Shown here piece after piece: positions 28,640 to 30,442 of a DNA stretch of 64,000 nt (its first letter is position 1; each line of letters starts with the position of its first letter). Origin of the DNA: Salinibacter pepae (GTDB lineage Bacteria; Bacteroidota; Rhodothermia; Rhodothermales; Salinibacteraceae). The notes beneath the pieces were generated by a model, which saw only the letters and a list, made by a program, of their open reading frames with translations, searched no databases and had not been told where the DNA came from. The stretch spans positions 930,001-994,000 of the forward strand of contig NZ_CAMTTE010000001.1 of the NCBI RefSeq assembly GCF_947077775.1. The letters are read 5' to 3'. The translations under genes were made by a program, and so were the position numbers.

Positions 28640-29587
28640 TTACTCCTCGGAGACCTCCTTGTCGCTCTGCTCCTTGATGAACTCAACGAGACCGGTCACC
28701 TCTCGCTCCGAAAGGCTGGCGTACGACGGCATTACGTTCTGGTAGCCCTCCACCACCTTCGCCCCCGATTGCAGAATGGATTCGCGAAGATAGTTCGCAT
28801 CCGCCGTGACCGTCGACCCGTCGGCCATTTGGTGGTCGGTCTTGCCGTAGAGGCCCTTCCAGGTGGGCCCCACCATGTCGGAGCCATCGAGGCTGTGGCA
28901 ACCCTGACAGCCCTGTTGCGTGTAGAGCTTTTCTCCCAACTCCGGAAGCGGAATGTCGTCCGGTGTTGCGGCGCTTTCCAGCCACTGGTCGAAGCGGGCG
29001 CGGGAAACGACCTTCACCTCCGCGTCCATCTCGGAGTGGTTCCGGCCGCAGTACTCGGTGCAAAACAAGTCGTACGTTCCTTCTTTCGTCGCCTCAAACC
29101 ACACCGACGTGTAGCGGTTGGGCAGCACGTCCTGCTTTACCCGAAACGCCGGGACGTAGAAGCTGTGGATCACGTCCTGGCTGCTCATGGTGGTCTTCAC
29201 CGGCTCGTCGGCCGGCACGTACAGGGTGTCCGTCGTAACGCCGTTCGGATACTCGAACGACCACCCCCACGACCGCGCCTGCACCCGAATCTCGTATGCA
29301 TTGTCCGGGATCGTCTTCTGCGCCACGAACGACTTGAACCCCCAGTTGAAGACGAGGAGGACGAGAATCGTGGGAATTACGATCCAGGAAATCTCCAGCA
29401 GCTTGCTCTCCTTGACGGGACTGGGCCGCTCGGCGGGGTCCTGACGGCGATAGCGGTACATAAACCAGAGCATCGCCGCAACCACGCCGACGAGGAGAAT
29501 CCCGCTGACGACGTTTACGAAGGTAAAGAGACTATCAATCTTCGGCGCCATCGTAGACGCCGCTTCGGGAAGCCAAAAATCACCCAT
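28640..29587 (-). CDS. ctaC: Cytochrome c oxidase subunit II fused to cytochrome c (caa3 type)
   Basis: Accepts electrons and passes them to subunit I. The 315-residue protein has two membrane segments (about 21-43 and 63-81), a cupredoxin domain with the CuA ligands His141, Cys176, Glu178, Cys180, His184 and Met187 ([12 protein letters not shown]), and a C-terminal cytochrome c domain with CQGCH at 227-231 and likely axial Met286 (VMPSYASL). The fused cytochrome makes it caa3 type. It sits 82 bases upstream of ctaD. No typical signal peptide is seen; the first membrane segment probably acts as one. Confidence 0.96.
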
Positions 29588-29698
29588 GTCGTGATTGGTC
29601 GTTGGTGGAGACGAATCGCTGCCTCATGTCAAAAGGGCGGCCGATGGGGGGTCGTGCGCCGCCGTGCGGGGTGCCCCCCGTACCCGCCGTCCGGGTTG

Positions 29699-30442
29699 TC
29701 ATTCCGGCTGCTGCCGCTGCTGATACTCCTCCCTCGCGACGAGGTCCATGGCACGGTCAATCGGGATCCGATAGGTGCCCTCCTCCTCGTCCACGACCTC
29801 ATACTGTTGCAACTCCTGTGCCGCCTCCATCTCGGCCTGCTTGATGTCACGGTACTGCATCCGCTCGGCGGCCGCCCCCTCCGCGCTTTGGCTCACCTGT
29901 CCAAACCACCCGAACAGGATGGCGACGGCGGTCAGCACAACGGCAATGATCGAGGCCGAGATGCCCATAATCTGGCTCGCAGCCACGCCTTCGTACGCCA
30001 CGCCACGCTCCTTCTCCTTCTCGATCTGATCCTCGAAATCAAAGGGTTGGGCGGTGGCTTCTTGACGGGCGGCGCGCGCAAGTTCCGTCACGGGCTCCTC
30101 GTCGGCGGCCTCGGCGGGCCCCTGCTCGGCCTCCGCCTCCGTGGTCGCGACGAAGCTCTCCACGGGGCTCGGGGGTCCCCACTCGCCGTCCCTCTCAACG
30201 AGCACCCGCCAGAAGAACGTCTGCCCGTCCGTGGGCAGCTTGTTGCCGACCGTTACCGCCGTTTGGGTCCCCACCTCGGCGTCCACGACAGGCGTGTCGA
30301 AGCGCGCCGTCTCGGCCACCTGCAGGCGGTACGCGTCGCCGTCCTCGACGGGGGACCAGACGAACGTCACTGCACTCCCGTCCGCCGAGACGGTGTCAAC
30401 GGGCGTGACCAGTGAGGGCGTGGGGCCGTCGTCGGAAGCCAT
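29699..30442 (-). CDS. Fibronectin-III-like domain plus single membrane segment, respiratory cluster protein
   Basis: A 247-residue protein lying between actF and ctaC on the same strand (111 and 135 bases from its neighbours). Residues about 10-100 look like a fibronectin type III domain (FVWSPVEDGDAYRLQVAETA and FFWRVLVERDGEWGPPSPV). An acidic linker leads to one membrane segment at about 160-181, followed by a helical tail and RIPIDRAM at 225-232. Short membrane proteins with a similar RIPI(D/E)RAM ending occur in oxidase clusters of other phyla, as I recall. I infer a structural or assembly role linking complex III and the oxidase. Function is unproven. Confidence 0.65.
   Translation of the reverse strand: MASDDGPTPSLVTPVDTVSADGSAVTFVWSPVEDGDAYRLQVAETARFDTPVVDAEVGTQTAVTVGNKLPTDGQTFFWRVLVERDGEWGPPSPVESFVATTEAEAEQGPAEAADEEPVTELARAARQEATAQPFDFEDQIEKEKERGVAYEGVAASQIMGISASIIAVVLTAVAILFGWFGQVSQSAEGAAAERMQYRDIKQAEMEAAQELQQYEVVDEEEGTYRIPIDRAMDLVAREEYQQRQQPE

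Follow-up and report, generated by a model that had tools for sequence, protein, structure and literature searches.

A probable ActG subunit with a lineage-specific fibronectin-III-like N-terminal domain between the act and cta genes of Salinibacter pepae

In the window analyzed here, the whole stretch of 64,000 nucleotides from Salinibacter pepae, the genes of an alternative complex III (ACIII) are separated from those of a caa3 oxidase by a single small gene. What is the protein encoded at this position, and does it connect the two respiratory complexes? The gene (P0001) occupies positions 29699..30442 on the minus strand, with an ATG start at 30442 and its stop at 29699, and encodes 247 residues; this agrees with the first-pass annotation, in which the strand was unstated. 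Its upstream neighbor is actF (P0003, 30578..31840, minus strand) at a distance of about 135 bp, and about 111 bp downstream follows ctaC (P0002, 28640..29587, minus strand), encoding caa3 subunit II with a cytochrome c domain. Gene order on the minus strand is actB, actC, actD, actE, actF, P0001, ctaC, ctaD, ctaE and a COX4-like gene. Pfam identified COX2 with cytochrome c, COX1, COX3, COX4_pro, ActD (3.6e-66) and NrfD among the neighbors. The actF product had no Pfam match and was named because of its place after actE and its homology to the corresponding gene in the clusters of relatives. At 29588-29698, between P0001 and ctaC, there is no SCO1/SenC gene, which R. marinus carries between actG and ctaC (L048 4418-5251); in some relatives of the genus (L015 and L017), actG and ctaC stand about 950 bp apart.

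P0001 is a real gene, as seen from its conservation across genomes and from dN/dS ratios of 0.12-0.21 over the whole gene in comparison with four relatives. Calculated by part for the same four relatives, the ratios were 0.16-0.35 for the N-terminal fibronectin-III-like (FN3) half and 0-0.16 for the C-terminal core, showing that both halves are under purifying selection, the FN3 half more loosely. An antisense ORF at 28769-30415 on the plus strand, longer than P0001, had no comparable support. Searches of P0001 with Pfam and NCBIfam returned nothing at cut-off, tblastn against plasmids gave no match, and promoter and terminator scans provided no useful boundary.

The conserved C-terminal part (profile A1, residues 139-247, 29702..30028, minus strand) was recovered from 67 distinct loci. 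It contains the only hydrophobic stretch of the protein, in line with the one membrane segment annotated earlier; hydropathy places this transmembrane segment at residues about 158-181 (29900..29971), inside a helix that spans residues 155-212 in the predicted model. The motif RIPIDRAM (residues 225-232, 29747..29770), which the first-pass annotation had taken for the end of the protein, is present as a strand-to-helix motif that stops 15 residues short of the C terminus. Its P and A were invariant in 68/68 aligned rows (one locus was entered twice). P0001 has no cysteine, hence no CXXCH, and no redox cofactor motif.

When a profile built from 23 cores was compared with 177,635 PDB sequences, the best match was 8k9e_G, a chain labelled ActG (E 0.0011), and the ActG chains of three more PDB entries were matched as well. 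We take the 8k9e complex to be the alternative complex III of Chloroflexus aurantiacus, structures of which are cited in the literature. The match to 8k9e_G is weak (22 bits over about 37 residues), though specific as to its target, and consists essentially of the stretch L..Y...G...IPIDRAMDL; a larger core profile, run at equal search-space size with a typed fragment as target, gave an E value of 0.0008. Whole P0001 had no relative in the PDB by phmmer, and the core folded alone was poorly predicted (mean pLDDT 64), with no Foldseek match in the PDB.

A second link to ActG comes from R. marinus, which we equate with genome G017 because its ActD and 6f0k_D, a chain of the R. marinus complex, agree at every one of 217 residues. 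In this genome, actF is followed by a gene (L048) for a 130-aa, core-only protein without FN3, which by itself matched 8k9e_G with an E value of 0.021. PMC5928083 counts seven subunits in R. marinus ACIII, among them ActG, for which one transmembrane helix and no cofactor are predicted; ActG was detected in the purified complex by peptide mass fingerprinting, the map has no density for it, and some act clusters lack actG. PMC9316378 contains the contrary statement that R. marinus ACIII does not contain the Chloroflexus ActG, so that the two sources conflict on this point. Since both proteins share the motif by profile match, the comparison suggests that the R. marinus and Chloroflexus ActGs form a single family, linked by a short motif.

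On the basis of the core, the place between actF and ctaC and the relation to the solved ActG chain, we propose with a probability of roughly 0.78 that P0001 is ActG, the single-helix, cofactor-free seventh subunit of ACIII, here with an N-terminal FN3-like extension. A structural, cofactor-free role in a respiratory complex is likely, because the C-terminal half falls into this family and the R. marinus protein was detected in purified ACIII.

A protein search of 99 genomes of the order returned matches in 96, which were of three kinds. The own family and a few others were matched over the full length; elsewhere, short ORFs matched the C-terminal hundred or so residues only; and other proteins matched FN3 alone. 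From all core matches, a subset of 68 order-level loci (L009-L034, L038-L078 and L081) had been picked by core match, independently of neighboring genes. All 65 loci with both neighbors visible had the core between actF and ctaC on the same strand; of the other three, L013 and L045 were cut by contig ends, and L034, a second copy, lies apart from the act-cta cluster. The same position was found for all of another 20 loci, sampled at class and phylum level. A core-profile search of the phylum gave 108 hits in 107 of 394 genomes, with 103 of these hits 2.3-3.4 kb from the ActD gene; for three the place of ActD was not given, and the two located away from it were one extra copy and one hit on another contig. 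In G113 and G164, two genomes of the own class with sizes of about 2.1-2.4 Mb, ActD was present and the profile detected no ActG core, with 96 other class members matched.

The FN3-like part has a narrower distribution. It was present in the same ORF as the core in 27/68 order-level loci and lacking in 41/68, and was found in 0/20 of the class and phylum loci. The search for both parts in other act/cta clusters, which the first-pass annotation had suggested, thus located the core there and FN3 in these 27 loci; homologues confined to non-respiratory clusters, named in the same annotation as evidence against its proposal, were not what was found. Genes with FN3 and core also occur as extra copies. 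Five of them lie outside the 68 loci (L079 4325-5266, L080 4207-4869, L128 4009-4644, L139 1078-1911 and L140 175-1050), and another is the second copy L034/L083 (1551-2387). No act or cta genes were found near L079, L080 and L034/L083, where they were searched for; such copies count against the reading as ActG. Genome G021 has an act-cta copy without FN3 (L047) and an extra copy with FN3.

On a quick ActF tree with 66 rows, the FN3 label required 5 changes, compared to 20.7 in shuffles, and a single FN3 clade was rejected (p-AU 0.019). Considered alone, the strongly supported branches force only one change and would allow one FN3 origin. The proteins of L061-L063 are without FN3, yet carry a linker resembling that of the FN3 forms (GPxxxL...EV...G, read by eye), and this retained FN3-type linker hints that FN3 may have been lost in their family.

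Residues 10-100 (30143..30415, minus strand) form the lineage-specific N-terminal domain, which the first-pass annotation had described as fibronectin-III-like. AlphaFold2 with nine sequences predicted a beta-sandwich for this region with a pLDDT of mostly 82-91 for the block, the rest of the protein being weak (mean 65), and the model has the seven strands of an fn3 beta-sandwich. Foldseek searches with the predicted domain returned fibronectin-III domains (best E 1.5e-5), as did VIA-align (Z 11.0, 90 residues, 2.2 A). Pfam fn3 gave no hit in P0001 at E<=1 and matched 0/9 of the members tested, and NCBIfam likewise gave no fn3. The earlier description therefore holds at the level of the predicted fold, by which the domain is FN3-like, outside Pfam fn3. 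With a profile built on the FN3 part, strong matches were obtained to further membrane proteins of the order (E values down to 2.8e-33); of the ordinary fn3 regions in the own genome (L001-L008), one was matched, weakly (1e-5).

The position of the gene exactly between the two gene sets raises the possibility that the FN3 domain physically holds ACIII and caa3 oxidase together. Such a bridge gains some plausibility from R. marinus, in which ACIII and caa3 do associate, a supercomplex with a 20 A map being reported in PMC5928083. That supercomplex, however, was reported for an organism whose ActG (L048) is without FN3, and for F. johnsoniae, PMC8361435 attributes the contact to oxidase subunit III; for these two reasons FN3 would not be a general bridge. 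The absence of FN3 from more than half of the order-level cores (the 41 loci given above) and the occurrence of related FN3-membrane proteins outside act/cta, half of them (12/24) beside cbb3-oxidase assembly genes, argue against it as well. We consider the bridging function very improbable. Of the earlier proposal of a structural or assembly factor bridging the complexes, the structural role is retained through membership in the ActG family, but FN3 as the bridge is not, given the many cores without it, R. marinus included.

FN3-membrane proteins outside the usual act-cta copies were examined at 24 loci. Located upstream on the same strand were ccoS in 12 of these loci and ccoI in 11; where the stretch reaches far enough, ccoG and ccoH precede them. 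The loci with a one-helix FN3-like protein after ccoG-ccoH-ccoI-ccoS were L124-L127, L131-L133, L136-L138, L142 and L143 (for example L137 4077-4610). A DsbD_2/SafE gene sometimes adjoins the gene of the cbb3-linked FN3 protein. Pfam searches, each on a single representative, confirmed FixG, FixH, a P-ATPase of the copper type, FixS and DsbD_2. The other 12 loci, that of the own genome included, were without cco genes. The own genome encodes a double-FN3 membrane protein at about 2781771-2782742 of contig C1 (G000; L082 3272-4243, plus strand); this gene adjoins a malate/lactate dehydrogenase gene, the cco genes of its L127 and L132 relatives are not beside it, and it lies 467 kb from a cbb3 subunit gene found with FixO.

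These arrangements bear on another reading, in which P0001 would be an assembly or maturation factor of heme-copper oxidases and the FN3-helix module would be common to the caa3 and cbb3 systems. The location of FN3-profile-matched membrane proteins after ccoS and ccoI is consistent with this, and so is the SCO1/SenC gene that comes next in R. marinus. P0001 itself falls outside the cbb3-operon group, as it sits in act-cta and carries the RIPIxxAM tail, which the cbb3-linked proteins lack. The detection of ActG in purified R. marinus ACIII (PMC5928083), the C. aurantiacus ActG as a chain of a purified and solved complex, and the loci devoid of cco genes all weigh against a maturation factor, and we regard it as unlikely. 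If the cbb3-linked proteins share partners with P0001, this would point to a common oxidase accessory module.

On which side of the membrane would the FN3 domain of the proposed ActG be located? The FN3 modules known from bacteria are mostly exported, and a periplasmic domain making cell-surface or matrix contacts would match them. The distribution of lysine and arginine around the helix was dropped as a decider, since it gave opposite answers in different clades. In the 41 FN3-less proteins of the order, K+R was higher after the helix (29/41 within 12 residues), a net positive charge on the C-terminal side that points towards N-out and would suit a periplasmic domain; in the 20 proteins from the class and phylum it was higher before the helix (14/20 within 6 residues, 0 opposite), which points towards N-in. 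Evidence against a periplasmic location is that no signal peptide precedes FN3 and that, in the related FN3 proteins, the helix is mostly at the very C terminus in the style of tail anchors.

A further argument is provided by a helix-turn-helix (HTH)-like stretch before the ActG core, in the same place as FN3, in 8 of the 20 class and phylum loci (L145, L146, L149-L152, L155 and L164). Pfam HTH_Tnp_1 was above cut-off for L150 (28.2 bits vs 24.1) and matched five of the eight stretches when these were searched in isolation (E<=0.1, the best being 2.9e-7); the best E value of an HTH profile against the PDB was an unconvincing 0.19. The stretch is called transposase-type because of the Pfam HTH_Tnp_1 matches and the alignment read by eye, and a domain of this type would be expected in the cytoplasm. 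With no signal peptide and an HTH in the same place in relatives, we lean towards a cytoplasmic FN3 domain with the N terminus inside; a periplasmic domain with cell-surface or matrix contacts appears improbable.

For ActG with an added FN3 domain, the following arrangement can be envisaged. The helix would pack against the membrane module of ACIII, and the conserved YRIPIDxAM tail, a strand plus a helix, may dock on one face of the complex. On the opposite face, FN3 would be held by an acidic linker and could provide an extra protein-protein contact, with an influence on stability, on assembly or on the binding of additional partners. FN3 would be dispensable for electron transfer and for the joining of ACIII and caa3.

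ActG has so far been a blank in function and is described as Chloroflexus-specific in one paper; the core profile ties the R. marinus and Chloroflexus proteins together by one motif, with the gene almost always beside that of ActD. New here are the variable N terminus of ActG and the FN3-membrane proteins after cbb3-oxidase assembly genes. Neither FN3-extended nor HTH-extended ActG, nor the cbb3-linked FN3 proteins, were found in the literature searched, which included few subscription papers; for FN3 together with ACIII it held a bare listing in a paper on iron oxidizers. A tentative generalization is that ActG may be a membrane anchor with an interchangeable cytoplasmic N-terminal adaptor slot, filled by an FN3-like domain in Salinibacter-type bacteria or by a captured transposase-type HTH in others of the class, and that the same FN3-helix module, serving cbb3 from the end of the ccoGHIS operon, might be a shared docking or assembly module for terminal oxidases; the literature searched held no description of such a module. 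The variable N-terminal domains offer a testable handle on the role of ActG and on possible contacts of the ACIII-oxidase assembly with other proteins.

Among known systems, R. marinus ActG, from the same order of bacteria, agrees with P0001 in gene position, single helix and a core of the YGVVDxExGVYRVPIDRAM type; in contrast, it comprises 130 aa without FN3, and SCO1/SenC lies between its gene and ctaC. The C. aurantiacus ActG (chain G of 8k9e, 8k9f, 8x2j and 9ilt) is likewise a small subunit with a single membrane segment, and its LNSYGYTMEGKVHIPIDRAMDLIVE stretch was aligned to the core profile. It differs in its 112 aa, the lack of FN3, low overall identity and its origin in a photosynthetic ACIII of another phylum. 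Fibronectin type III domains such as 5e53_B and 3mpc_A have the predicted fold in common with P0001 (Z about 11 over 90-94 residues), but the domain of P0001 is not recognized by Pfam fn3 and belongs to a membrane-anchored respiratory subunit rather than a multi-domain surface protein. The cbb3-linked proteins encoded after ccoGHIS in the same order share the FN3-like domain by profile and the one helix that follows it, whereas their helix is at or near the C terminus, the RIPIxxAM core is missing and the operon is another. P0001 is thus best read as a variant of the known ActG family, extended by a lineage-specific N-terminal domain.
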